The position numbers were made by a program, and so were the translations under genes. The notes below the pieces were generated by a model. It did no database searches, had not been told where the DNA came from, and was given only the letters and a program-made list of their open reading frames with translations. Below, piece after piece: positions 4,985 through 20,323 of a stretch of DNA of 64,000 nt (position 1 is the first letter of the stretch; every line of letters starts with the position of its first letter). Source of the DNA: Alteripontixanthobacter maritimus (GTDB lineage Bacteria > Pseudomonadota > Alphaproteobacteria > Sphingomonadales > Sphingomonadaceae); assembly GCF_003340475.1 (NCBI RefSeq), contig NZ_QBKA01000002.1:2551501-2615500 (forward strand), read 5' to 3'.

Positions 4985-5345
4985 TTCTGGTTAGCCTCAA
5001 GCGCCGATGTTTTTTGTTTGGCCTCAAGCGCCGGCGGGAGTTGTTTGTTTGGACCCTGCGGGCGCGGACCATCCGGTCCGCTTGCTACCTCGCATAAGCT
5101 CGGGCGGCCGTTCGGCCTTGCCGTTTGCTGGTCGCAAACGGAACTTGCGCTACCATTGCAATTTTGAACCCGGTCCTTGGCTACGGCAGTCATAGGCCCA
5201 AAGGGCCGCCCGCAGCGCAAAACGCGAGGATAGCCTAAGGGAGCGGATGCGACCGCCGGCGCTTGAGGCTAAACCAAAAACTTCCGTCCCGCCCGCAGGG
5301 TCTAAAACAAAAACACCGGCGCTTGAGGCTAAACCAAGAACCTCC
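4985..5345. repeat. Nested intergenic repeat array with structured repeat copy 1
   Basis: This gap between the M13 gene and uppP holds no convincing gene. Its core (about 5042-5234) is copy 1 of a structured element whose second copy lies near 11,316-11,502. The core has hairpins GCGGACC-ATCC-GGTCCGC (5064-5081), GGCCG-TT-CGGCC (5106-5117) and CCGTTTG-CTGGTCG-CAAACGG (5121-5141). It is closed by CTGCGGGCG (5056-5064) pairing with CGCCCGCAG (about 5207-5215). Around it sit four copies of an AGCCTCAAGCGCCGG-type unit: two forward (4989, 5020) and two reversed (5255, 5316). A fragment CCCGCAGGGTC (about 5293) is the reverse complement of the left core edge. It looks like an insertion hotspot for palindromic repeats. 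Function unknown. Confidence 0.8.
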
Positions 5346-7050: not shown

Positions 7051-8001
7051 TCAGACCGGGTCGGCCCCGCTGCCGCGCCCGCCGCGCAGGAGATATTCCT
7101 GCGTCCCGCGGTTCACCACGTGATCCACATCGATCACGGCGGAGTTGGCGTAAGTGAAGGCAGGCGGCAGAGATTTGTACAGCTTGTCGAAATCGCGTTC
7201 GACCGTTTGCCGGTACAGGTCATCGAAATCCTCGATGACGAAATAGGTCGGCTGCAGGTCGCTGATTACATAATCGGTCCGCATAACGCGATCGACATTG
7301 AGCATAATGCGGTTGGGGCTTTTCGCCTCGGTCGCGAAGACGACTTCCGTGGGCCCCGACAGGATACCGGCGCCATAGGCGCGAACCTCGTCATCCTCCA
7401 TCATCAGACCGAATTCCACGGTGTACCAGTAGAGCGATCCCAGCGCCTTCAACCGGTTGTACCGCATCGCCTTCCATCCTGCGCGGCCATATTCCTGCAT
7501 GTAATCGGCAAAGGTCGGGTCGGTCAGCATGGGGACGTGGCCGAACACATCGTGGAACACGTCTGGTTCCTGAATGTAATCGAACGTCTCGCGCGTCCGG
7601 ATAAAGTTCCCGGCCGGAAAACGGCGGTTGGCAAGGTGCCAGAAGAACACGTGATCGGGAATCAGCATGGGCACGGGCACTACGCTCCAACCGGTTAGCT
7701 TGCCCAGATTTTCGCTCATTTCGACGAAGTCCGGCACTCCGCCGCGCCCCAGGTCCAGCTTGTCGAGCCCGCGCATGAACGCTGAGACGGCGCGTCCCGG
7801 CAGCACTTTCATCTGGCGCGCGAAGAGGTCGTCCCAGATCGCATCGTCCTCGCTGTCGTAGCTCGTCTGCTCGGGCTCCAGCCAGTCTTCGCCCAGATGG
7901 TTCGGCTTCTGGAGCGGTGCGGTAAACACGTCTTGGGGCATTTCGGGAAGCTGCGCGTAATTGGCAGCGGCGGATGCTTTGTCGAGTGCGATAGTAGCCA
8001 T
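7051..8001 (-). CDS. phhA: Phenylalanine 4-monooxygenase
   Basis: Converts phenylalanine to tyrosine using tetrahydropterin, O2 and non-haem iron in the cytoplasm. The 316-residue protein has the three iron ligands His150 and His155 (in FHDVFGHVPML) and Glu196 (in YWYTVEFGL). The conserved MLIPDHVFFW and RRFPAGNFIR segments surround the pterin/substrate site. It lacks an N-terminal ACT domain, as usual for bacterial enzymes. No pterin recycling gene (phhB) is adjacent. It diverges from ppk2 with 59 bases between starts. Confidence 0.95.
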   Translation of the reverse strand: MATIALDKASAAANYAQLPEMPQDVFTAPLQKPNHLGEDWLEPEQTSYDSEDDAIWDDLFARQMKVLPGRAVSAFMRGLDKLDLGRGGVPDFVEMSENLGKLTGWSVVPVPMLIPDHVFFWHLANRRFPAGNFIRTRETFDYIQEPDVFHDVFGHVPMLTDPTFADYMQEYGRAGWKAMRYNRLKALGSLYWYTVEFGLMMEDDEVRAYGAGILSGPTEVVFATEAKSPNRIMLNVDRVMRTDYVISDLQPTYFVIEDFDDLYRQTVERDFDKLYKSLPPAFTYANSAVIDVDHVVNRGTQEYLLRGGRGSGADPV

Positions 8002-8060
8002 GGCCTTCCCCTATAACCCAAATGCTTCCAAAAGGTGCGCATTTCTAACGGGAGATTGGC

Positions 8061-8840
8061 ATGGGAAAGCTGAAAGGCAAGGATTACCGGCACCTGCTGC
8101 GTCCGCTGGAAGAGGAATTGGTGGGTATGGCCCGCTGGGCACGCGAAACAGGGCAGCGCATCTGTGTGCTGTTCGAGGGGCGTGATACGGCGGGCAAGGG
8201 CGGCGCGATCCGGGCGGTAAGCCAGCGCCTCAATCCGCGTCAATGCCGGGTGGTGGCACTGCCGAAGCCTGACGAGCGGGCGCAAACGCAATGGTATTTC
8301 CAACGCTATGTCCGGCATTTGCCTGCCGCCGGGGAAATAGTATTGTTCGACCGCAGCTGGTACAATCGTGCCGGCGTCGAAAAGGTGATGGGGTTTGCGT
8401 CGAACGAGGAGGTTGCGCGCTTCCTGAACGAGGCACCGTGCTTTGAACGGATGCTGGTGGATGACGGTATTCTGCTGTTCAAATACTGGCTGGCAACCGA
8501 TCAGGACCGGCAGGAAGAGCGGCTGGCAGAACGTCTGGAAGATCCGCTCAAACGCTGGAAACTGTCACCGATGGACCTCGCCGCACGCGAGAAATACGCC
8601 GAATACAGCGACGCGCGCGAGACGATGCTGCGGGCTACGCATACCGACCATGCACCGTGGACGCTGGTAAATTTCAACGACCAGAAGCGCGGGCGGCTGA
8701 CCCTGATCCGCGATTTGCTCGATCGCTTGCCAAACTACGACATCGCGCCGCCCGATATCGTCTTCCCACCCCTCGGCCATGAGCCGCTGGTGGAGGAATA
8801 TCGCGTGGTCGCACCGCTGAAAGATTATGTGGTGGAATAG
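8061..8840 (+). CDS. ppk2: Polyphosphate kinase 2 family protein
   Basis: Transfers phosphate between polyphosphate and nucleotides. The 259-residue single-domain protein has Walker A GRDTAGKGG (Lys47) and the lid/Walker B region LFDRSWYNRAGVE (Asp97), both typical of PPK2. The length fits class I enzymes, which usually phosphorylate nucleoside diphosphates, but the nucleotide preference cannot be read here. The ATG at 8061 follows the ribosome-binding sequence gggag. Confidence 0.92.
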   Translation: MGKLKGKDYRHLLRPLEEELVGMARWARETGQRICVLFEGRDTAGKGGAIRAVSQRLNPRQCRVVALPKPDERAQTQWYFQRYVRHLPAAGEIVLFDRSWYNRAGVEKVMGFASNEEVARFLNEAPCFERMLVDDGILLFKYWLATDQDRQEERLAERLEDPLKRWKLSPMDLAAREKYAEYSDARETMLRATHTDHAPWTLVNFNDQKRGRLTLIRDLLDRLPNYDIAPPDIVFPPLGHEPLVEEYRVVAPLKDYVVE

Positions 8841-8850
8841 GTGGACCTTC

Positions 8851-10083
8851 CTACCGCGCCAGCTCGAACACCGCCGCCATGCCCTGACCGCCGCCGATGC
8901 ACATGGTTTCCAGCCCGAAACGCACGTGGCGGCGCTTCATTTCGTATGCCATATCAGCAAGGATACGCAGGCCGGTCGCGCCGATGGGGTGACCAAGCGA
9001 GATGCCCGATCCGTTGACGTTGACGAGATCGCGGCGCGAATCGTCATCGGCCCAGCCCCAACCCTTCATGACTGCGAGCGCCTGCGGCGCGAACGCCTCG
9101 TTCAGTTCGACAAGACCGATATCATCCCAGCTGCGTCTTCCGCGCGCGAACAGGCGGTCAACCGCCGGCACCGGGCCGATGCCCATGCGCGAGGGGTCAC
9201 ATCCGGCGGCAGCCCAGCTGTAGAACCATAGGATCGGAGTAAGGCCCAGTTCCTCGACCTTGTCCTCCGCCACCACCAGGCACCCGGCGGCGGCGTCGTT
9301 TTGCTGGCTGGCATTACCCGCGGTGACAACTGCGTCAGGATTGTCGCGTCCTTCGATGGCGCGCAGCTTCCCAAGCGTTTCCATGGTCGCATCGGTGCGA
9401 AAACCTTCATCGCGGACAAAGGAGATGGGATCGCCTTTGCGCTGCGGCACGTCGACCGGGACCAGCTGTTCGTCAAACTTCCCCGCATCCCATGCTGCGG
9501 CAGCGTTCTGATGACTGCGAACCGCAAAAGAGTCGGATGCCTCACGCGTGATGCCGTAATCCTGCGCCAGGTTCTCCGCGGTCTCGATCATGCCACTGAT
9601 AACGCCGAACCGTTCGATCGGCTGGCTCATCAACCGCCCGCGCGTCAAGCGGTCCCACAGCGCCATGTCGCCCATTCGCGCGCCGTGGCGGGCTTTCGTG
9701 GTGTAATGTTCCACGTTGGACATCGATTCCACGCCGCCTGCCAGCACGCAATCTGCCGCGCCGGTCTGCACCATCATCGCCGCATTGACGACCGCCTGCA
9801 GCCCGCTGCCGCAGCGCCGGTCCAGCTGATAACCGGGCACGGAGATCGGCATGCCCGCCGCCAGCCAGCTCCAGCGCCCGATGGCCGGCGCTTCGCCGCT
9901 ACCATACCCTTGGCTGAAGATCACATCGTCCACGCGTTCGGGATCGACGCCGCTTCGCTCCACCAGCGCTTTGATGATGATCGCCCCGAGCGCGCCAGCC
10001 TCCAGCGGGGCCAAGGTGCCAAGGAACTTGCCGACCGGCGTGCGAAGCGGAGTGCAGATGGCGGCGCGGCGGAGTGCGGTCAT
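8851..10083 (-). CDS. Acetyl-CoA C-acyltransferase (thiolase)
   Basis: A thiolase-fold enzyme of 410 residues that cleaves or forms 3-ketoacyl-CoA. The acyl-accepting cysteine is Cys91 in LDRRCGSG. The C-terminal catalytic motifs GHPIGATG (His) and CIGGGQG (second Cys) are intact. Its start overlaps the stop of the upstream CoA-transferase gene by ATGA, so the two are translationally coupled. With the CoA transferase and acyl-CoA dehydrogenase next door, it likely belongs to a fatty-acid or aromatic/terpenoid acyl-CoA catabolic route. The specific substrate is not evident. Confidence 0.9.
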   Translation of the reverse strand: MTALRRAAICTPLRTPVGKFLGTLAPLEAGALGAIIIKALVERSGVDPERVDDVIFSQGYGSGEAPAIGRWSWLAAGMPISVPGYQLDRRCGSGLQAVVNAAMMVQTGAADCVLAGGVESMSNVEHYTTKARHGARMGDMALWDRLTRGRLMSQPIERFGVISGMIETAENLAQDYGITREASDSFAVRSHQNAAAAWDAGKFDEQLVPVDVPQRKGDPISFVRDEGFRTDATMETLGKLRAIEGRDNPDAVVTAGNASQQNDAAAGCLVVAEDKVEELGLTPILWFYSWAAAGCDPSRMGIGPVPAVDRLFARGRRSWDDIGLVELNEAFAPQALAVMKGWGWADDDSRRDLVNVNGSGISLGHPIGATGLRILADMAYEMKRRHVRFGLETMCIGGGQGMAAVFELAR

Positions 10084-11312
10084 GTCGGTTTCCTGTCTGA
10101 AAGGCCCACGGTTCCTGCGTCGACCAGCGCGCCGATCTGGCCGGAGGATAGCCCCAGCCGTTCGGCGAGCACTTCTTCGCTATGCTGGCCGTTGTAAGGC
10201 GCGGCTTCGGGGTTACCACGATCCTGCGCGGGTATGTTGGCGATGGGGCCCGGGGCGGGATAGGCGAACCCGCTGGGATTGGCGGGGGAGGGGCCGAACA
10301 ACGGGTTGTTGGCAACCAGCTCAGGATCGGTCGAGGCTTCGTGCATAGTCCGGTATCTCTCGAACGTCGCACCCGCCTTACCAAGTGCCTGCGCAATGTT
10401 GGCATAATCCATCTTGCTCGCCCGATCCTGTACCAGTGCGAACAGCGCCTCGCGGTGGGTGAAGCGATTGTGGTCGCTGCGCGCGAAACTCACGCCTTCG
10501 CTGGCTTCAATGGCTGCGACACCATCGGCGATATCGAACGCGGCGATGGTTGCCGCCCACTGTTTGTGCGTTAGCGCGGCGACCATGAAGCGGATGTTGT
10601 CACGGCTGCGGAAATCGGTGCCGAACGCGCCCCAGATGGCGTTGCCAAGCCGCTGGCGATCATCGCCGCGATACAGCATTTCCGCCATCGCGCCGGAATT
10701 GGCGACCGTCCCCATCATAACATCGCCCAGCGGCACCCGCACCTCGCCGCCCCCGCCGGTCGCATCGCGGTGGCGCAGCGCCGCCATCAGCGCGAAGGCA
10801 GAATAGGCACCCGTGATGAAGTCCCATGCGGGCAGCACTTGGTTGACTGGCGGGGCGGTGTCAGCGCCCCATTCCGCCGGGCCGGTCATCAGCGGATATC
10901 CGCTCGCGGCGTTGACGGTAAAATCCATCGCCTGACGCCCGTCTGGCCAGCCCATGATACGCAAGGTGATCATGTCGGCGCGTTTTGCCGCCAGTTTTTC
11001 ATGGTCGAGGAAACTGCCATTCGGGATGTTGGTAATCAGCTGGCCGGTCGCGGCGGACAACTCCACCAGCAATTCGCGCCCCTCACTGCTGCGCAGGTCC
11101 AGCGCGACCGATTTCTTGGCCCGGTTGAGGTTTTCCCAAGCGAGCGAACGGCCCTCCTCGGTCAGCATATACCGGTCGTAATCCAGCCCGCCGCCGATCT
11201 GGTCCACCCGGATGACTTCGGCACCCATTTGCGCGAGATAAAGTCCGGCAGTAGGGGAAGCGACGAAGCTGGACGCTTCGATGATCGAGAGGTCGGAGAG
11301 AAGGTTATACAT
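10080..11312 (-). CDS. CaiB/BaiF family CoA transferase
   Basis: A family III CoA transferase (410 residues) moving CoA between carboxylic acids. The ATG at 11312 yields the classic N-terminus LLSDLSIIEASSFVASP with the GLYLAQMGAEVIRVD segment. An open frame extends further upstream into the structured repeat and is rejected as coding. The middle segment TGAYSAFALMAALRHR plus TGGGGEVRVPL is family-typical. It overlaps the thiolase gene by four bases. It is separated from the acyl-CoA dehydrogenase gene by a repeat copy, so whether they share a transcript is unclear. Confidence 0.88.
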   Translation of the reverse strand: MYNLLSDLSIIEASSFVASPTAGLYLAQMGAEVIRVDQIGGGLDYDRYMLTEEGRSLAWENLNRAKKSVALDLRSSEGRELLVELSAATGQLITNIPNGSFLDHEKLAAKRADMITLRIMGWPDGRQAMDFTVNAASGYPLMTGPAEWGADTAPPVNQVLPAWDFITGAYSAFALMAALRHRDATGGGGEVRVPLGDVMMGTVANSGAMAEMLYRGDDRQRLGNAIWGAFGTDFRSRDNIRFMVAALTHKQWAATIAAFDIADGVAAIEASEGVSFARSDHNRFTHREALFALVQDRASKMDYANIAQALGKAGATFERYRTMHEASTDPELVANNPLFGPSPANPSGFAYPAPGPIANIPAQDRGNPEAAPYNGQHSEEVLAERLGLSSGQIGALVDAGTVGLSDRKPT

Positions 11313-11315
11313 TTT

Positions 11316-11502
11316 TGTTTGGGGCCCTGCGGGCGGAACCCATCCGGGTTCCTTGCTTCCTCGCATAAGCTCGGGCGGCCGTTCGGCCTTGCGGTCCGCT
11401 GGTCGCGGACCGAACTTGCGCCAAGCTACATAGGTAGTCCCGTTTCCAGGTCACGGCAGTCATAGGCCCAAAGGACCGCCCGCAGCGAAGCGAGGATAGC
11501 CC
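11316..11502. repeat. Structured intergenic repeat, copy 2
   Basis: Second copy of the element at about 5042-5234, same orientation relative to the plus strand. Hairpins are GGAACCC-ATCC-GGGTTCC (11335-11352), GGCCG-TT-CGGCC and CGGTCCG-CTGGTCG-CGGACCG (11392-11412). The closing stem pairs CTGCGGGCGG with CCGCCCGCAG. Loop sequences are identical to copy 1, whereas stem bases differ on both sides in a compensated way. It sits between two minus-strand genes. Confidence 0.85.
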
Positions 11503-11528
11503 AGCCGTACTGACAGACACATCACCCC

Positions 11529-12707
11529 TCAACTCTCGGCCGCGAACTGCCGCAGCATGTTCTTCGCGATGACCAGCTGCAGGATCTGCGTGGTTCCTTC
11601 GTAAATGCGGTAGATGCGGCTGTCGCGGAAGAAGCGTTCGGCCTCGTATTCGGCCAGATAGCCCGCGCCGCCGTAGATCTGCACGCAGCGGTCTGCCACA
11701 CGGCCGCACATTTCGGATGCGAACATCTTGGCGGCAGCCGCCTTGATAATGGCGGGGCCATTATTAGCCTTGGCCGCGGCGTCGCGGATCATGCATTCAC
11801 TCGCGTAAATTTCCGCCTTGCTGTCGGCCAGCATGGCCTGGATCAATTGGAACTGGCTGATGGAATCGCCGAATGCCTTGCGTTCGGTCGAATATTTTAG
11901 CGCGCTGTCGAGGATGCGCTTGGCATAGCCGGCGCTGGCGGCGGCAACGGACAGGCGGCCATTATCGAGGCTCTGCATGGCGGTGGCGAAACCGCGGCCT
12001 TCCTCCCCACCCAGAAGCGCGCTGCCCGGCAGTTTGACATCATCGAAATACAGGTCGCCGATATGGCTGCCTTCCTGCCCCATCTTCTTGTCGGACTTGC
12101 CGCGCGCGATACCGTCGGTGTCCATTTCGACGAGGAAGGCGCTGACATGGGCGTTCTTGGCCTGATTGTCTTTCTCCGTGCGCGCCATGATCAGGCCGAT
12201 CTTCGCAAACGGGGCGTTGGTGATGTAGCGTTTCGCACCGTTCAGCACGTAACCATTGCCGCTGCGCGTGGCGGTGGTCTGCATCGCTGCGCTGTCCGAT
12301 CCGCTGCCCGGTTCGGTCAGGCCGAAACAGGCGATTTCGCCCGCTGCCAGCCGGGGCAGATACTCCGCCTTTTGTTCGTCGGTGCCGTTTTTCTTGATGG
12401 CGGAACACACCATGCCGAGGTTGATGGAGGTCAGGCTGCGATATGCCGGAAGCGCATAGCTGAGCACGCGGATCGCCTCGACATATTGCGGCACGTTCAT
12501 GCCTGCACCACCATACTCCTCCGGCATAGTGAGTCCGAACAGGCCCATGCCGCGCATTTCGTCCTGCAGATCCTCGGGGATCATATTGTCTGCGATGACC
12601 TGCGATTCGGCAGGGATAAGCCGTTCGCGCACATAGCGCTGGAGCTGCTCGATGAACTGGTCGAAAGTCTCGGCGTCCATGCCGTTTTCAGATGGGATGG
12701 CGGTCAT
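11529..12707 (-). CDS. Acyl-CoA dehydrogenase
   Basis: A 392-residue FAD enzyme introducing the alpha-beta double bond in acyl-CoA and passing electrons to ETF. Signature 1 (CFGLTEPGSGSD) and the C-terminal catalytic region YRIYEGTTQI are present. The N-terminal helical domain, beta domain and C-terminal helical domain have normal lengths. The start at 12707 overlaps the stop of the upstream lipoprotein gene by ATGA. Chain-length preference cannot be inferred. Confidence 0.92.
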   Translation of the reverse strand: MTAIPSENGMDAETFDQFIEQLQRYVRERLIPAESQVIADNMIPEDLQDEMRGMGLFGLTMPEEYGGAGMNVPQYVEAIRVLSYALPAYRSLTSINLGMVCSAIKKNGTDEQKAEYLPRLAAGEIACFGLTEPGSGSDSAAMQTTATRSGNGYVLNGAKRYITNAPFAKIGLIMARTEKDNQAKNAHVSAFLVEMDTDGIARGKSDKKMGQEGSHIGDLYFDDVKLPGSALLGGEEGRGFATAMQSLDNGRLSVAAASAGYAKRILDSALKYSTERKAFGDSISQFQLIQAMLADSKAEIYASECMIRDAAAKANNGPAIIKAAAAKMFASEMCGRVADRCVQIYGGAGYLAEYEAERFFRDSRIYRIYEGTTQILQLVIAKNMLRQFAAES

Positions 12708-12979
12708 GGGGCAAGCTCCTCCGGCGTGGCTTCTGGGTCAGGATTTGTGGCGTCATGGTTTGTTTCAACGGAACCTTGTTCAGGCGCGTTACCGACGACC
12801 GCCGGGTCGAGCCGTCCGGCCTCGACCATCTCGGCCGCCTCGTCCAGCGCGCGCGCTTCGCCCACGGTCACGCCGCCTTCGCCAGGATCGGTATCGGCCG
12901 GGCCGCATGCGGCGACGAAGATTGTTGCGGTAAGGGCGGCGCACATGCGCGCGCGGCGAGCAGTCGAGAACGGTTTCAT
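12704..12979 (-). CDS. Small predicted lipoprotein
   Basis: A 91-residue protein with a signal peptide ending in the lipobox FVAACGPA and a polar, Asp/Glu/Pro-rich mature chain without recognisable domains. It starts at the ATG at 12979. Its last bases overlap the acyl-CoA dehydrogenase start (ATGA), so it may be cotranslated with it. No family recognised. Confidence 0.62.
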   Translation of the reverse strand: MKPFSTARRARMCAALTATIFVAACGPADTDPGEGGVTVGEARALDEAAEMVEAGRLDPAVVGNAPEQGSVETNHDATNPDPEATPEELAP

Positions 12980-13004
12980 TCACCGCACTCTATTGCCGTT
13001 TGGA

Positions 13005-13048
13005 CAAAAGAAAAGGCGGACGAAGCACCCCATGATGCTGCGTCCGCC
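13005..13048 (-). terminator. Intrinsic terminator of the 13,086-13,496 lipoprotein gene
   Basis: Stem GGCGGACG/CGTCCGCC (13015-13022 with 13041-13048) with inner GCA/TGC pairs. Read on the minus strand it is followed by a T-rich run (plus-strand aaaagaaaa, 13006-13014). Confidence 0.8.
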
Positions 13049-13085
13049 CTGTTTCTGCGATGCCGTAACGGCAACGGTGTTATTC

Positions 13086-13496
13086 TTACCGGTTCACCCG
13101 TTCAGCCTGCGAGCCGTTCACCGCACTTTGCATGTCCTGCGCATTGTCGCGTGCTTCTTCGCGGACCCGGTCGGTAGTGTCCCGGGCAGCCGCGGCAGCT
13201 GCTGCCTGCGCGCGAGCGGCGACGTCCTGCGCCTGTGTACCGGCGGCTTCTGCGCGGTCGATCTGGCGTTCCGTGACGACTGCTTCATTTGCAGTCGTGG
13301 CCGGAGCGACTGAGGTGTTGGAAGCATCCGCGTCCAGATCTTCGACCGGCTCTTCCTCCACAGTTTCGAGCGCCACGTCGGCGGGCATTTCGACCGTATC
13401 GGCTTCGGCTTCAACCGAGGCATCATCGGTATCGCCGCACGCAGCCAATACCAGCGCGAGGGAAGAGATGGCGGTAATTTTCAACGCAAACTTCAT
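13086..13496 (-). CDS. Alanine/glutamate-rich lipoprotein
   Basis: A 136-residue protein. The start at 13496 gives a signal peptide with lipobox LVLAACGD. The mature part begins with an acidic stretch (DDASVEAEADTVEMP) and ends in an Ala/Arg/Asp-rich segment rich in heptad-like spacing, possibly helical. A longer open frame to 13583 lacks a signal peptide and is disfavoured. A terminator follows. Function unknown. Confidence 0.7.
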   Translation of the reverse strand: MKFALKITAISSLALVLAACGDTDDASVEAEADTVEMPADVALETVEEEPVEDLDADASNTSVAPATTANEAVVTERQIDRAEAAGTQAQDVAARAQAAAAAAARDTTDRVREEARDNAQDMQSAVNGSQAERVNR

Positions 13497-13684
13497 GGGA
13501 CTGACCCTTTTTACCAAATGCCGCCTCCATGCTGGCTGGCGGCTTCGCAAACGCTGAATAGCGCAAGCACAACCGGCAATCAAAGGGAATGCGTTATGTC
13601 ACCTGTTCGCGTTACGGAGGAGGGTATGGGATAAGCGGTGGCGCAGACGTTTCATCGCGCCGTCCCATCTGTCAAAGCGCCAGA

Positions 13685-15553
13685 ATGGACAACGCGCCCG
13701 GCACCACTGCACCCCTGACCACAGGCGAGAACGCCGGTGCCGATGCCGGAGCTAGCGCGAATTTCGCGCCGCTTACTCTGGACGCCGCGCGTGCACGATT
13801 GCGCGAATTGTTCGGATTTACCGGTTTTCGCGGTCGGCAGGAGGATGTGCTTGCTCGCGTGCTGGCGCGGCAGTCCACCCTGGCGGTCATGCCCACCGGT
13901 GCAGGCAAATCGCTGACCTACCAATTGCCCGCCACCATGATGCACGGGACCTGCATCGTGATCAGCCCACTGATCGCGCTGATGCATGATCAGCTGCGTT
14001 CCGCCCGCGCCAATGGCATCCGTGCGGCCACGCTGACCAGCGCGGATGCCGACTGGCGAGAAACGCAGGACGCGTTCCGGAATGGCGAGCTGGACCTGCT
14101 GTATGTCGCGCCCGAACGCGCCAGCCAGCAGGGGTTTCGCAATCTGATTTCCGCCGCGCCGCTATGCATGTTCGCCATCGACGAGGCGCATTGTGTGTCC
14201 GAATGGGGCCACGATTTCCGCCCCGATTATCGCCAGCTCCGCCCGATGATGAACGCCTTTCCGGATGTGCCCCGGCTGGCGCTGACGGCTACCGCCGATG
14301 CCCACACCCGCGGCGACATCATGGCCCAGCTGGGAATTCCCGATGACGGGCTGGTCATCGCAGGTTTCGATCGGCCCAATATCCGCTACGCTATCGATCA
14401 CCGCGATAGCGTCTCTCGCCAGCTGACTAATTTGATGGCCGCGCATCCCGGCCCAGGCATCGTGTACGCCCCTACCCGCCGCAAGGTTGAGGACATTGCT
14501 GAGAAGTTGGCGGCGGCAACCGGCCGCCCGGTTCGCCCGTATCACGCCGGGCTTGATCCCGAAGTCCGGCAGGCCAATCAGGCCGCTTTCGTCGAGTCCG
14601 AAGACATGGTGATCGTGGCCACTATTGCGTTCGGAATGGGCATCGACAAACCCGATGTGCGCTTCGTTGCCCATGTCGGCATCCCCAAATCAATCGAGGC
14701 CTATTACCAGGAAACGGGCCGTGCGGGCCGTGACGGCGATCCGGCGCAAGCCGCGATGTTCTGGGGCGCAGGCGATTTCGCGCAGGCCCGGCAGCGGCTG
14801 GGCGAGCTCGATGAAAGCCGCCAGCAATCCGAACGCACGCGGCTGGATGCGCTCGCCGGACTGGTGGAAACGCCGGGTTGCCGCCGGGCGGTATTGCTGC
14901 GCCATTTCGGTGAGGACCCGCCCGAACGCTGTGGCAATTGCGACAATTGCATCGAAGCGCCGGCAGTGGCCGATGTGACGCAGCTGGCGCGCAAATTGCT
15001 TTCCGCCGTTTATCGCACGGGACAAAGCTTCGGCTTCGGCCATCTGGCCAAGGTGCTGACCGGCAATGAAGACGAACGCGTGCGCCAGCGCGGGCATGAC
15101 AAATTGAGCGTGTTCGGCATTGTGGACGGGGATGATGCGGTTCTACTGCAACCGCTGAGCCGGGCATTGCAAGCGCGTGGCTCGCTTGTTTCGACCGAGC
15201 ATGGCGGGCTGGCGCTGGGCGGTGATGCGCGCGACATCCTGACCGGCGGACAAACGGTCGAAATGGTGATGCCGCCCAAGCGTGCACGGCGATCCGGCGG
15301 ACGCGGACGGCGCGGCGCGAACGAGGCCAATCCGATCGGCGATCCGTTGTTCGAGGCGTTGCGCGATTTGCGTCGCACGCTCGCAAGCGAGGCGCAAGTC
15401 CCGCCTTATCTCGTATTCGGTGACGCGGCGTTGCGCGAAATGGTCAAGGCGCGCCCCACGACGGTGGCGGAGTTTGGGCAAATCAGCGGTGTGGGGGCGA
15501 AGAAGCTGGACGCATTCGGCGATGCATTCCTGGCGGTCATCCGGCAATATTGA
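13685..15553 (+). CDS. recQ: ATP-dependent DNA helicase RecQ
   Basis: A 3'-5' SF2 DNA helicase for recombination and replication-fork repair. The 622-residue protein has motif I MPTGAGKSLTYQ, DEAH-box FAIDEAHCVSEWGHDFRPDY, motif III LALTATAD and motif VI QETGRAGRDG. It also has the zinc-binding CGNCDNC, the RQC winged-helix region and a C-terminal HRDC domain (LFEALRDLRR to the end). The ATG at 13685 is preferred; the frame is open back to 13589, but those residues look non-coding. It follows a divergent lipoprotein gene. Confidence 0.93.
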   Translation: MDNAPGTTAPLTTGENAGADAGASANFAPLTLDAARARLRELFGFTGFRGRQEDVLARVLARQSTLAVMPTGAGKSLTYQLPATMMHGTCIVISPLIALMHDQLRSARANGIRAATLTSADADWRETQDAFRNGELDLLYVAPERASQQGFRNLISAAPLCMFAIDEAHCVSEWGHDFRPDYRQLRPMMNAFPDVPRLALTATADAHTRGDIMAQLGIPDDGLVIAGFDRPNIRYAIDHRDSVSRQLTNLMAAHPGPGIVYAPTRRKVEDIAEKLAAATGRPVRPYHAGLDPEVRQANQAAFVESEDMVIVATIAFGMGIDKPDVRFVAHVGIPKSIEAYYQETGRAGRDGDPAQAAMFWGAGDFAQARQRLGELDESRQQSERTRLDALAGLVETPGCRRAVLLRHFGEDPPERCGNCDNCIEAPAVADVTQLARKLLSAVYRTGQSFGFGHLAKVLTGNEDERVRQRGHDKLSVFGIVDGDDAVLLQPLSRALQARGSLVSTEHGGLALGGDARDILTGGQTVEMVMPPKRARRSGGRGRRGANEANPIGDPLFEALRDLRRTLASEAQVPPYLVFGDAALREMVKARPTTVAEFGQISGVGAKKLDAFGDAFLAVIRQY

Positions 15554-15577
15554 CAAACTGCCGGCTCCTGATAAATA

Positions 15578-15596
15578 TGATATCATAATTATATCA
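15578..15596. promoter_or_regulatory. Paired ATATCA elements ahead of the SPFH operon
   Basis: TGATAT (15578-15583) and ATATCA (15591-15596) form an inverted repeat, and ATATCA also recurs as a direct repeat 11 bases apart. The site ends 12 bases before the SPFH start. This spacing suits a ribbon-helix-helix repressor such as the Arc-type protein encoded in the same operon. The link is inferred. Confidence 0.45.
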
Positions 15597-15608
15597 GGAG
15601 CAGAAACT

Positions 15609-16547
15609 ATGTCCGACACTCAATCCGCCCCGGTGCCGCGCGCGAAAGGCGCGATGAACGTCAGCGAGGAAAGGCCGTCCAGTACTTTTAACGGCTATAT
15701 GATGTTGCTGGTGCTACTTGGTGTGGCGGCGATCGGCTTCCTCATTATGTGGGCCGGTTTTCCGGGTGTCGGGGCTGGTAAGGGTACCAAGCTGCTGTTT
15801 GCCGGATCGATCGTCGGTACGATCCTTGCGCTGTGTCTCGTTGCCGCGGGCTTCTTCATGATCCAGCCCAATCAGGCCGCCGCAATTACGCTGTTCGGCG
15901 AATATCGCGGCAGCGAACGGACCGAGGGTTTGCGCTGGGTATGGCCATGGATGATGCGCCAGAAAGTGTCCGTCCGGGCGCGTAACGTGCATTCGGACCG
16001 GGTCAAGATCAACGATCTGCGCGGCAATCCCATCGAAATTGCCTGCAATGTGGTGTGGCGCGTGGTCGATACCGCGCAGGCTAGCTTCGATGTCGACGAC
16101 TATAAGGAATTCGTGAACATCCAGATCGAGGCAGGTCTGCGCACTGTCGGTTCGCGCCATCCCTATGACGATTTCGAAGGCGAAGCAGTAACACTGCGCG
16201 GCGGCGCGGAAACCATCAATCGCGAATTGCTGGAAGAACTGAACGAACGCCTTCGTGTCGCCGGCATCCTGGTGGATGAGGCGGGCCTTACGCACCTTGC
16301 CTACGCGCCGGAAATTGCCAGTGCCATGCTGCGCCGCCAGCAAGCAGAAGCCGTGGTGGCCGCGCGCAAGACCGTCGTGATCGGTGCGGTCGGTATGGTG
16401 GACGATGCGCTGACCAAGCTGTCCGACGATGGCATTGTGGAAATGGACGACGAACGCCGCGCGGCCATGGTGTCGAACCTGATGGTGGTGCTGTGCAGCG
16501 ACCGTGACGCACAGCCGGTGGTGAATTCCGGCTCGCTCTACCAGTAG
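15609..16547 (+). CDS. SPFH/Band 7 domain membrane protein
   Basis: A 312-residue protein with two N-terminal membrane helices (about residues 30-50 and 62-84) followed by an SPFH (stomatin/prohibitin) domain beginning [18 protein letters not shown]. Such proteins form ring-like membrane scaffolds, often linked to proteolysis or membrane microdomains. The ATG at 15609 follows the ribosome-binding site caggagc. It heads an apparent operon with the Arc-type regulator, an exported hydrolase and a small membrane protein, so an envelope-lipid role is plausible but not shown. Confidence 0.85.
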
Positions 16548-16571
16548 GCGGAAGGTCGCGCGCGTTCATTT

Positions 16572-16790
16572 ATGGCGAAAAAACCCCAGAAGAAGGCCTT
16601 TGCCCTGCGGCTCGATCCGGCAGTCCATGCCGCGATCGAGCGGCTGGCCGCGACTGAATTGCGTTCCGCCAACGCGCAAATCGAGATGATGCTGCGCGAT
16701 GCCCTAAAGACCCGTGGAATAGATGTACCGACAAGCAAGCCCGCCCGGCGGGGGCGTCCGCCCAAACCAGAAACCGATGCAAAGGAATGA
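16572..16790 (+). CDS. Arc family ribbon-helix-helix DNA-binding protein
   Basis: A 72-residue protein. Residues 6-50 form a ribbon-helix-helix fold: strand KKAFALRLDPAVHAAIERL, then a helix with NAQIEMMLRDAL. The basic C-terminal tail (ARRGRPPKP) resembles an AT-hook. It lies 24 bases after the SPFH gene and 4 bases before the hydrolase gene. It could regulate the operon through the ATATCA elements upstream. It is not obviously an antitoxin because no toxin gene flanks it. Confidence 0.82.
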   Translation: MAKKPQKKAFALRLDPAVHAAIERLAATELRSANAQIEMMLRDALKTRGIDVPTSKPARRGRPPKPETDAKE

Positions 16791-16794
16791 CCCG

Positions 16795-17757
16795 ATGGAT
16801 ATTACCAAAGCTGCAATCGCAACAATTGCCCTTATGTCGAGCAGCGTTCTGATGGCGCATGACGCCCGGCCTATCACCGCTGCAGGACCGGACGGCGAAC
16901 TTGCCGGAACGCTTCTTGCTCCAGCCGAAGGCAAGCCGCTGGTGCTGATAATCCCTGGCTCTGGACCGACCGACCGCGATGGCAACAGCCCGCTTGGCAT
17001 AAGCGCCTCGACCTATCGGATGTTGGCAGAGGATCTGGCGGCGCGCGGTATCGGGTCCCTCAGAATCGACAAGCGCGGAATGTTCGGCAGCGCGGCAGCG
17101 GTAAAGGACGCCAACGCGGTTACGATCGACGATTATGTTCAGGATATCGCTGCATGGATTGCCGCCGCCCGCATGGAAACGAGTGCGGAATGCATCTGGC
17201 TGGCCGGGCATAGCGAGGGTGGTCTGGTAGCGCTTTCGGCAGCTGGCGAAGTGGACAACCTGTGCGGTCTCATACTGATCGCCGCACCAGGCCGGCCGCT
17301 GGGCATGATAATGCGCGAACAGTTTACAGCCAACCCGATGAACGCGCCGATCCTGCCGGATGCCATGGCGGCGATCGATGCGCTGGAAGCCGGCGAGCGG
17401 GTGGATGTCAGTGCAATGCATCCGGCGCTGCAGGGGGTGTTCGCACCGCAAGTGCAGGGGTTTCTGATCGACCTGTTTGCGCGCGATCCGGCTGCGCTGA
17501 TTGCGGATACCGATTTGCCGGTACTGATCGTGCAGGGTGAAGCCGACATTCAAGTTGCGAGTGCCGATGCAAAAGCGCTTTCTACCGCGCAACCCGTTGC
17601 GCGATTTGCCAGCCTGCCCGGCGTAAATCATGTGCTGAAAGATGTGGGGAATGCCGACCGGGCGCAGAATATGGCCAGCTATGCCAATCCGGAACTACCC
17701 ATCGCCCCAACTGTAACCGTTGCCATCGCCGACTTCGTTTTGGACCAACAGGAGTAG
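16795..17757 (+). CDS. Exported alpha/beta hydrolase
   Basis: A 320-residue serine hydrolase with an N-terminal signal peptide (TIALMSSSVLMAHA-like) and nucleophile elbow LAGHSEGG (Ser about residue 140). The oxyanion region IPGSGPTDRDGN precedes it. Late motifs are LIVQGEADIQV (acid) and LPGVNHVLK (His). It resembles the periplasmic hydrolases annotated only as alpha/beta hydrolase family. It sits third in the SPFH operon. Substrate unknown. Confidence 0.85.
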   Translation: MDITKAAIATIALMSSSVLMAHDARPITAAGPDGELAGTLLAPAEGKPLVLIIPGSGPTDRDGNSPLGISASTYRMLAEDLAARGIGSLRIDKRGMFGSAAAVKDANAVTIDDYVQDIAAWIAAARMETSAECIWLAGHSEGGLVALSAAGEVDNLCGLILIAAPGRPLGMIMREQFTANPMNAPILPDAMAAIDALEAGERVDVSAMHPALQGVFAPQVQGFLIDLFARDPAALIADTDLPVLIVQGEADIQVASADAKALSTAQPVARFASLPGVNHVLKDVGNADRAQNMASYANPELPIAPTVTVAIADFVLDQQE

Positions 17758-17761
17758 ATCG

Positions 17762-18040
17762 ATGAGCGGGTTCTTCGAGGAAGGCGACTGGTTCGCACCC
17801 AAACGGTTCGGTTACGGAGCGGGTATGCCGATCGCGTGGCAGGGCTGGGTGCTGCTTGGCGGGTTCATCGCGCTGGCGATCGGCGCGGGACTGCTGGCGG
17901 AGTACATTCCCGATATCGGTCCTGTCATCGCCTTGGCAGTACTGATTCCTGCCACCATCGTCTTCCTTGTCATAGCTGCGCGGCGAACCAGAGGCGGTTG
18001 GCGCTGGCGCTGGGGTTTGCGCAACAAAGACAGCGAGTAA
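17762..18040 (+). CDS. Small membrane protein of the SPFH operon
   Basis: A 92-residue protein with an N-terminal soluble part (FFEEGDWFAPKRFGYG) and two membrane helices (about 26-46 and 52-69), then a basic Trp/Arg-rich tail. It starts 4 bases after the hydrolase stop. No named family; its position suggests a link to the membrane role of the SPFH protein. Confidence 0.68.
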   Translation: MSGFFEEGDWFAPKRFGYGAGMPIAWQGWVLLGGFIALAIGAGLLAEYIPDIGPVIALAVLIPATIVFLVIAARRTRGGWRWRWGLRNKDSE

Positions 18041-18086
18041 ATCTGGCTTAGCGCCCCGTTAACCCTTTTCCCGTAAGCCGGGCAGT

Positions 18087-19112
18087 ATGGAAAGTTTTGT
18101 CATGCCCCGACCCGCCAAATTGCCTTCCCGCCTGTCCGCGCAGAAGGCGAGCCGCCCATCGACAACGATGTCGCTCTTGTTGGCGGCCACTGCCATTGCG
18201 GCTATTCCGGCTGCCGCCGTTCTGGCCCAGCCAGCCAATTCCGGCTCGCCCTTCACAGTGGTCGAAAGCGGGCGCAGCTTCGGCACTATCCAGCAGGCCG
18301 TTGACACCATCGGCAATGGAACCGGGACTATCGCGATCGCGCCGGGCGAACACCGCCAATGCGCGGTACAAAGCGAAGGGTCGATCGCATATTTTGCTGT
18401 ACAGCCCGGCACCGCCATTTTTGACGGCGTCGCGTGCCAGGGCAAGGCCGCGCTGGTGCTCGGCGGGCGTGAAGCAAGCGTTTCCGGCCTGATCTTCCGC
18501 AAGATGGCGGTGCCCGATTTCAACGGGGCAGGCATCCGTCTGGAAGGCGGCAACCTTACCGTGTCACAAAGCTGGTTCATGGATAGCCAGCAGGGCATTC
18601 TCGCCAATAACGATCCGGCATCGCGCATCGTTATCGACAAATCGACTTTCAGCGGGCTTGGCACCTGCGAAGGCCCGGGTGGATGCGCGCATTCCATTTA
18701 TATCGGCAATTACGGCCATTTGCGCGTCACGCGCAGCCGGTTCGAGCGCGGCACGGGTGGGCATTATGTGAAGTCACGCTCGGCACGCGTGGACATTGCC
18801 TCCTCCAGTTTCGATGACGCCAATGGCCGCGGTACAAATTACATGATCGACCTGCCCGCAGGGTCTGTCGGCCAAATTACCAACAACTGGTTCGTGCAGG
18901 GCCAGAACAAGGACAATTACAGCGCCTTCATCGCAGTGGGTGCGGAAACGATTTCGCACAGCAGCGCCGGACTTCAGATTGCCGGCAACGATGCGCGCTT
19001 CGCGCCGACCGTACGCCGCGAATCGACCTTCGTGGCGAACTGGACAGACGATAAACTTGCTATTGGTGACAATACGCTGGCGCCGGGTCTGAAGGTTACC
19101 GACCGACGCTAA
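18087..19112 (+). CDS. Exported right-handed parallel beta-helix protein
   Basis: A 341-residue protein with a long signal peptide (hydrophobic SLLLAATAIAAIPAAAVLA) and a pectate-lyase-like beta-helix body. The opening SFGTIQQAVDTI is a usual start of such folds, and repeated turns such as GAGIRLEGGNLTVSQSWF follow. No catalytic residues of a polysaccharide lyase can be assigned, so it is called by fold only. The start may be 18087 or the ATG at 18102. It stands alone between the SPFH operon and dksA-like gene. Confidence 0.75.
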   Translation: MESFVMPRPAKLPSRLSAQKASRPSTTMSLLLAATAIAAIPAAAVLAQPANSGSPFTVVESGRSFGTIQQAVDTIGNGTGTIAIAPGEHRQCAVQSEGSIAYFAVQPGTAIFDGVACQGKAALVLGGREASVSGLIFRKMAVPDFNGAGIRLEGGNLTVSQSWFMDSQQGILANNDPASRIVIDKSTFSGLGTCEGPGGCAHSIYIGNYGHLRVTRSRFERGTGGHYVKSRSARVDIASSSFDDANGRGTNYMIDLPAGSVGQITNNWFVQGQNKDNYSAFIAVGAETISHSSAGLQIAGNDARFAPTVRRESTFVANWTDDKLAIGDNTLAPGLKVTDRR

Positions 19113-19173
19113 AGTCAATCCATTCCGGCACTTTGCGCTGCTTCGCCGGTTGTTAGGGTGAAGGAGCGATACG

Positions 19174-19446
19174 ATGGCAGGTGGTTGGGCGCGCGATGGC
19201 GCGGTGCAGGATCAGATCGACGATACGGTGAATGACGCGGTCGCCGCGGCAAGGGCCAGGCTGAAAGCGACAGAATCGCGCAAAAGCGCGGAATATTGCG
19301 ACGATTGCGGAGAAGACATCCCGGACAAGCGCCGCAATGCGCTGCCCGGCGTGAGGACCTGTGTCGCTTGCCAGTCCGCCCGCGACGCGTCAGTGCGCCA
19401 TTCCGCCATCAATCGGCGCGGCAGCAAGGATTCCCAGCTTCGATGA
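19174..19446 (+). CDS. DksA/TraR-type C4 zinc-finger protein
   Basis: A 90-residue protein with an N-terminal helix and a C4 zinc finger: CDDCGEDIP ... TCVACQ. Short DksA/TraR-like proteins insert a coiled coil into the RNA polymerase secondary channel; this one has only a short coil, so polymerase binding is uncertain. The ribosome-binding site aaggag precedes the ATG at 19174. It ends 25 bases before psd. Confidence 0.85.
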   Translation: MAGGWARDGAVQDQIDDTVNDAVAAARARLKATESRKSAEYCDDCGEDIPDKRRNALPGVRTCVACQSARDASVRHSAINRRGSKDSQLR

Positions 19447-19471
19447 TCACTTACCTGCGCGAAGGTTTCGC

Positions 19472-20323
19472 ATGAGCAAGCCGTTTATCTGGCTGCAACA
19501 CGCCCTGCCGCAACTCGGTCTCACCCGCTTTGCCGGACGGGTGGCTGCGAGCGAGAAGCCATGGATACGCGACCGCCTGATCGACCGGTTCGTGCGTGCT
19601 TACAACGTCGATATGGACGAGGCTGAGCGCGACATCGGCGATTTTGCCAGCTTCAACGACTTTTTTGCGCGTAGCCTGAAACCGGGCGCGCGGCCGCTGG
19701 CCGATGCCGCCACCCACGTGCTTTGCCCCGCCGATGGCGAAGTCAGCCAGCTCGGTACCATCCGCGACGGCCGGATCGTGCAGGCCAAGGGGCACGAATA
19801 TACGGTTGCCGAACTGTTGGGCGGGGATGAAGCCCTGGCGGCCAGGTTTCATCAGGGTGACTTCATCACGATCTATCTCAGCCCCAGCGATTACCACCGG
19901 GTACACATGCCAGCTGCAGGAACGCTTCAGAGCACGAGCTATGTGCCGGGCGATCTGTTCAGCGTGAACCAGACTACGGCTGCCAATGTGCCCGGCCTGT
20001 TCGCCCGCAACGAACGCCTGTCCTGCGTGTTCGATAGCGAGCTTGGCACAATGGCCAGCGTGATGGTCGGCGCGATGATCGTGGCCGGTATCGAGACCGT
20101 CTGGGGCGGGCGTGTCGAACCGCCAGAACGCGGGCGCGGCAAACGCCTGCACCGCGAAACACCCGGTCGTGCGACGCGGCTGGATGCGGGCGCCGAGATG
20201 GGCCGGTTCCTGCTCGGCTCGACCGTTGTGCTGTTGTTCGAACAGGAGAAAATCGAATTTCTGCCGCAGTTCAAACCCGGCAGCAAAACCCGCATGGGCG
20301 AGGCGCTGGCACGCCGATTATAG
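19472..20323 (+). CDS. psd: Phosphatidylserine decarboxylase proenzyme
   Basis: Makes phosphatidylethanolamine at the inner membrane. The 283-residue proenzyme has the self-cleavage motif LGST (about residues 248-251), whose serine becomes the pyruvoyl group. The conserved segments are FFARSLKPGARP, PADGEVSQLG and LSPSDYHRVHMP. The ATG at 19472 gives the normal family N-terminus. The usual downstream pssA is not adjacent; the next gene (ribA) is convergent. Confidence 0.95.
   Translation: MSKPFIWLQHALPQLGLTRFAGRVAASEKPWIRDRLIDRFVRAYNVDMDEAERDIGDFASFNDFFARSLKPGARPLADAATHVLCPADGEVSQLGTIRDGRIVQAKGHEYTVAELLGGDEALAARFHQGDFITIYLSPSDYHRVHMPAAGTLQSTSYVPGDLFSVNQTTAANVPGLFARNERLSCVFDSELGTMASVMVGAMIVAGIETVWGGRVEPPERGRGKRLHRETPGRATRLDAGAEMGRFLLGSTVVLLFEQEKIEFLPQFKPGSKTRMGEALARRL

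Follow-up and report, generated by a model that had tools for sequence, protein, structure and literature searches.

A dispersed four-hairpin repeat of Alphaproteobacteria with exchangeable but paired stems, a candidate for recognition as folded single-stranded DNA

Two intergenic repeats in a 64,000-nucleotide window of the Alteripontixanthobacter maritimus genome (the whole stretch of DNA analysed here) share their loops and joining sequence but differ in their stems. Is their structure under selection, and is it formed as RNA or as DNA? The original prediction placed the copies at about 5042-5234 and 11,316-11,502, and both were confirmed, with every stem and loop it named located exactly. 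Copy 1 proved larger than proposed, with nested remnants at its ends. The two copies and their parts are as follows:

about 4994-5335, + strand: copy 1, complete element including its nested end remnants, flanked by an M13-type peptidase gene (+) and uppP (+)
4994-5055, + strand: copy 1, nested left end remnants, T-rich ends in succession with GCCTCAAGCGCCG boxes
5064-5081, + strand: copy 1 unit A HP1, GCGGACC-ATCC-GGTCCGC, located exactly, covarying
5088-5103, + strand: copy 1 unit A HP0, CCTCGC-ATAA-GCTCGG, with tandem CT/TC (GA/AG on the - strand)
5106-5117, + strand: copy 1 unit A HP2, GGCC-GTTC-GGCC
5121-5141, + strand: copy 1 unit A HP3, CCGTTTG-CTGGTCG-CAAACGG
5195-5207, - strand: copy 1 unit B (inverted partner), HP2-like hairpin GGCCC-AAA-GGGCC
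5215-5229, - strand: copy 1 unit B, HP0-like hairpin
5239-5254, - strand: copy 1 unit B HP1, GGGAGC-GGAT-GCGACC, of the tandem G-A class
5256-5335, - strand: copy 1, nested right end remnants; 5290-5302 within them is the partner of 5052-5064 in true register
11315-11501, + strand: copy 2, right end truncated, flanked by an acyl-CoA dehydrogenase gene and a CaiB-type gene (both -)
11335-11352, + strand: copy 2 unit A HP1, GGAACCC-ATCC-GGGTTCC
11359-11374, + strand: copy 2 unit A HP0
11377-11388, + strand: copy 2 unit A HP2
11392-11412, + strand: copy 2 unit A HP3, CGGTCCG-CTGGTCG-CGGACCG
11465-11495, - strand: copy 2 unit B (inverted partner), inner part, GGCCCAAAGGACC and an HP0-like hairpin

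The repeat unit measures ~100 bp and consists of four hairpins in a row, in which loops and linkers are conserved and stems variable. On the top strand the order is T-rich end, box CCTCAAGCGCCGGGCG (or CCCTGCGGGCG), HP1, linker CTTGGCT, HP0, HP2, CTTGC and HP3. HP1 has a stem of 5-7 bp and the loop ATCC with a C-G closing pair (top strand), HP0 a 6-bp stem and the loop ATAA, HP2 loops of GTTC, GGTC or AGTC, and HP3 a variable stem with a short loop. The invariant 'core' that served as our search sequence is HP0, which is itself a hairpin with several alleles, because partner units not chosen by the core carry CGCGCC/GGCGCG, CGCCGC/GCGGCG and CGCGGC/GCCGCG among several. Units usually come in inverted pairs, and full elements contain an A unit and an inverted B unit with a variable centre between them. 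Four A. maritimus copies (L012, L014, L015, L019) have an extra short palindrome, CCTTCGACAGGCTCAGGACA, inserted next to HP2.

A long stem had been proposed to close the whole structure. Its sequence does exist: CTGCGGGCG pairs with CGCCCGCAG at 5056-5064 and 5207-5215 in copy 1 and at 11327-11335 and 11477-11485 in copy 2. This stem is nevertheless out of register, its 3' arm being an inner linker of the inverted partner unit and its 5' arm an outer box, and whole single-strand DNA folds of copies 1 and 2 (z -3.1 and -5.6) form pairs between inner arms in its place. The better, homologous outer partner in copy 1 is 5290-5302, which forms 13 bp (GACCCTGCGGGCG/CGCCCGCAGGGTC). The linker CTCGGGCGGCCGTTCGGCCTTG is the same in both copies, with a chance expectation of 0 matches.

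Between copies 1 and 2, four of seven pairs differ in HP1 and three of seven in HP3, and all are Watson-Crick, so the seven paired changes originally reported are real. As an argument from covariation, however, the two copies overcount, because whole stems are exchanged en bloc. In the A. maritimus genome HP1 and HP3 alleles are combined in different ways (GGAACCC with either HP3 allele), which points to exchange of whole hairpins and not to seven independent events; a few HP1 alleles also move between sites in a Parasphingorhabdus-type synteny block. For a larger set, boxes and loop alone served to locate the units, independently of pairing. Taking all units alike, with the kinship of copies outside the statistics, HP1 pairs 2-5 are Watson-Crick in 93% of cases across 205 units, compared with 41% when 3' arms are shuffled among units (maximum 47% in 2000 shuffles) and 33-35% for slid partners; the 93 distinct HP1 stem pairs alone give 88% versus 36%. 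Many copies with unpaired stems were not encountered in the A. maritimus and related genomes, where most HP1 stems stay paired. Selection on structure, as originally suggested, is thus supported by these sequence comparisons.

Could pairing be kept by copying alone? In palindrome templating, replication switches template and copies one arm onto the other, giving perfect stems in the absence of selection. The mechanism is documented (PMC8794818), and the repeat resembles such template-switch palindromes in that its stems change in multibase steps and stay paired, with perfect Watson-Crick stems and few intermediates. It departs from those palindromes in two features that templating leaves unexplained, its strand-specific loops and its conserved tandem mismatches. 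Tandem CT/TC mismatches (GA/AG on the bottom strand) are found mostly in HP0 and in one HP1 class (25/188). In HP1, GA lies on the bottom strand in 25 cases to 0, the reverse never being seen, and the main HP0 allele has the same orientation; for many HP0 copies the core sequence was itself the selection criterion, and the tandem-mismatch classes may have few origins, possibly a single one. In the HP1 class the mismatch is retained while the outer pair varies (C-G, G-C, T-A). Since template switching should eliminate mismatches of this kind and correct the arms to perfection, their conservation disfavours templating alone, as do loops, closing pair and linkers that are invariant across orders. 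We therefore regard it as unlikely to be the whole explanation, although copying between units clearly takes place: the L185 element carries the same G-T mismatch in both of its inverted units, and copying between inverted units was seen for L185 at S1. In the E. coli REP system a conserved stem mismatch is required, and only the REP strand is bound (PMC8266576).

The original prediction left the nucleic acid open, as RNA or extruded DNA. A structured RNA, either a small RNA or part of an mRNA in which selection on the RNA maintains stem pairing, would fit the strong covariation, and units are frequently found a short way downstream of a stop codon. RNA motifs, too, can contain tandem G-A pairs and fixed loops. 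However, G-T pairs make up only 5 of 820 HP1 pairs (0.6%), whereas terminator hairpins of the same loci have 57/658 (8.7%; Fisher p about 1e-15), a somewhat generous contrast since the control consists of hairpins before T-runs whose stems could extend into G-T pairs. G-T and A-C are about equally frequent in the repeat, so there is no G-T excess over A-C. The loops point the same way. On the bottom strand, HP3 loops are GNNNA (40), GNA (21) or GNNA (16) in 77 of 128 cases, and the same classes account for 4/128 on the top strand; 14 of the 16 GNNA loops are GNYA. On the transcribed strand, 13 terminator loops are GNRA and 3 are UUCG, while neither GNYA nor GNA occurs. The bottom-strand HP1 loops GGAT, GGAC and GGAG, closed by C-G, fit d(cGNABg), which a title cited by PMC9969394 gives as a motif from selection for stable DNA tetraloops; the DNA-loop argument draws on this motif title and on general knowledge. 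Units show no preference for the transcription strand of neighbouring genes (31 to 35, by heuristic gene calls), and 17 of the A. maritimus units are co-oriented with replication to 8 that are not (p = 0.11, not significant; GC-skew origin at about 2.3 Mb). Rfam searches of the window at the gathering threshold and of six loci at E <= 5 returned no convincing match on the units, and thus no curated covariance model for them as a structured RNA family. Selection acting through RNA is accordingly a distinctly improbable reading in our judgement. Because G-T pairs are few, the loops are of these types and no transcription strand is preferred, the evidence favours units acting as folded single-stranded DNA of one strand, though none of it is proof.

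The placement of units bears on a related proposal, that of a 3'-end element acting between genes as terminator, attenuator or mRNA stabiliser. Convergent sites outnumber divergent ones by 37:19 (p = 0.02), genes pointing at a unit usually end nearby (median 55-80 nt before HP0), and at S2 (L184, L304, L307) the element occupies the place of a terminator-like hairpin pair present in eight relatives. No U-run follows the hairpins, however, because the T-rich tracts lie outside them on the 5' side, and copy 2 lies within an operon, directly ahead of a start codon. A 3'-end function is very unlikely to account for the repeat.

How widely is the repeat distributed? Genome searches identified about 20 near-full copies and about ten fragments in A. 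maritimus (G000; 2.68 Mb, two contigs), most of them within 1.5-2.56 Mb of contig C2, which is 40% of the chromosome. The start of this contig (G000:C2:1-12000, L031) repeats window positions 7660-19659 with 99.76% identity and 23 gap openings, apparently unresolved redundancy of contig ends and not a genuine duplication; L020 was rejected as an independent copy for such contig-start redundancy with the window. Within the same family, 81 of 200 genomes match a 185-bp query. The 19-base core was found in records from Sphingomonadales, Asticcacaulis, Rhizobiales, Kordiimonadaceae, Iodidimonas and Hwanghaeella, and is rare in a whole-class sample (11/385). A plasmid search gave only a 34-base match, in seven Sphingobium replicons, and a phage search gave none. 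Units in L080 and L126 begin just downstream of apparent tRNA gene 3' ends. The literature searched (core sequence; REP in Sphingomonadales; MITE in Sphingomonas) yielded no published description of the repeat.

Comparison of syntenic sites shows that copies are gained, exchange hairpins and replace or invert one another. In several relatives the acyl-CoA dehydrogenase gene directly adjoins the CaiB gene, whereas copy 2 separates the two in A. maritimus, and no unit core was found upstream of caiB in the fetched relatives; by this comparison copy 2 is a lineage-specific insertion into a tight operon. At the site of copy 1 before uppP, only L215 among about 30 fetched relatives has an element, with a different stem and a fully paired HP0. 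In the Parasphingorhabdus-type block, S3 is occupied in one species and holds 17-29 bp in five (empty site), while at S1 eight species have an element, running either A-B or B-A, and two have only 40-60 bp. The position of the element persists across species at both S1 and S4. Two species (L303, L305) have 4 differences over 216 bp of the S1 element, compared with 82% identity in the surrounding region, and the element's centre is single-copy in both genomes, which suggests that a resident site recently underwent transfer or conversion. Both sides of copy 1, of L301, L305 and L306 at S1 and of L185 at S4 carry nested end remnants, a pattern suggesting repeated takeover of the interior of older elements by newer ones.

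Lineage-specific insertions, inverted terminal sequences, many copies, small size and lack of coding sequence are shared with MITEs of bacterial insertion sequences. The repeat might therefore be a decaying MITE of some insertion sequence, its covariation reflecting only exchange among recently moved copies, with which block exchange of hairpins would agree. Unlike MITEs, it has internal covarying hairpins with fixed loops. No clear target site duplication was found at the empty sites (caiB, S3) and no parent insertion sequence was seen; genes between inverted units in the densest unit cluster, the one inspected by eye for an autonomous parent, look ordinary. Dozens of distinct stems, all paired, across genera and the persistence of position at S1 and S4 also speak against decay, making this the least probable of the explanations considered.

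The closest likeness is to REP, BIME and REPIN sequences, which are repeated, short extragenic palindromes, often arranged as inverted dimers or heterodimers, with compensatory stem changes (PMC3733652, PMC3116915); REPIN hairpins in particular show such changes (PMC3116915). REP elements and their RAYT (TnpA_REP) further provide a precedent for strand-specific recognition of folded single-stranded DNA with a loop or stem mismatch (PMC8266576), the counterpart here being a strand asymmetry of loops and mismatches read from sequence. The differences are substantial: our units span ~100 bp with four hairpins, as against 20-40 bp and one hairpin in REP, and they have many stem alleles within one genome. 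REP families are defined by a GTAG or CGTC tag, of which GTAG families vary and CGTC families lack a transposase association (PMC3733652); neither tag is conserved beside the hairpins in the copies inspected by eye. No Y1/RAYT transposase (PF01797) was found in the A. maritimus genome or beside units, any Y1_Tnp is present in 18 of 100 family genomes, and no convincing unit was seen at Y1 gene loci of relatives. With the tag not seen and RAYT not found, the repeat is REP-like in its working but not a REP member.

We thus lean towards a dispersed, non-autonomous REPIN/BIME-like repeat whose folded strand is recognised by a putative trans-acting enzyme. The sequences show copies being gained at new intergenic sites, whole hairpins being exchanged, and copies at old sites being replaced or inverted. 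The folded form would be single-stranded DNA of one strand, that reading GGAT in the HP1 loop, recognised by its shape and by loop and mismatch bases, and the recogniser may be transposase-like or a replication or repair factor. Stem sequence would be free to drift or be swapped provided that pairing holds. A more specific version is doubtful but conceivable: an undescribed alphaproteobacterial system in which an enzyme unrelated to Y1/RAYT recognises the four-hairpin fold of single-stranded DNA and spreads it both from species to species and into resident copies.

With dozens of different stems, all fully paired, around loops that stay fixed, this natural family makes selection on a DNA fold separable from palindrome templating. 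It illustrates that covariation between repeat copies need not imply RNA, and that compensatory changes are overcounted when stems are swapped as blocks. If the strand-specific DNA reading is true, a large class of bacteria has a hairpin-recognising enzyme still to be discovered.
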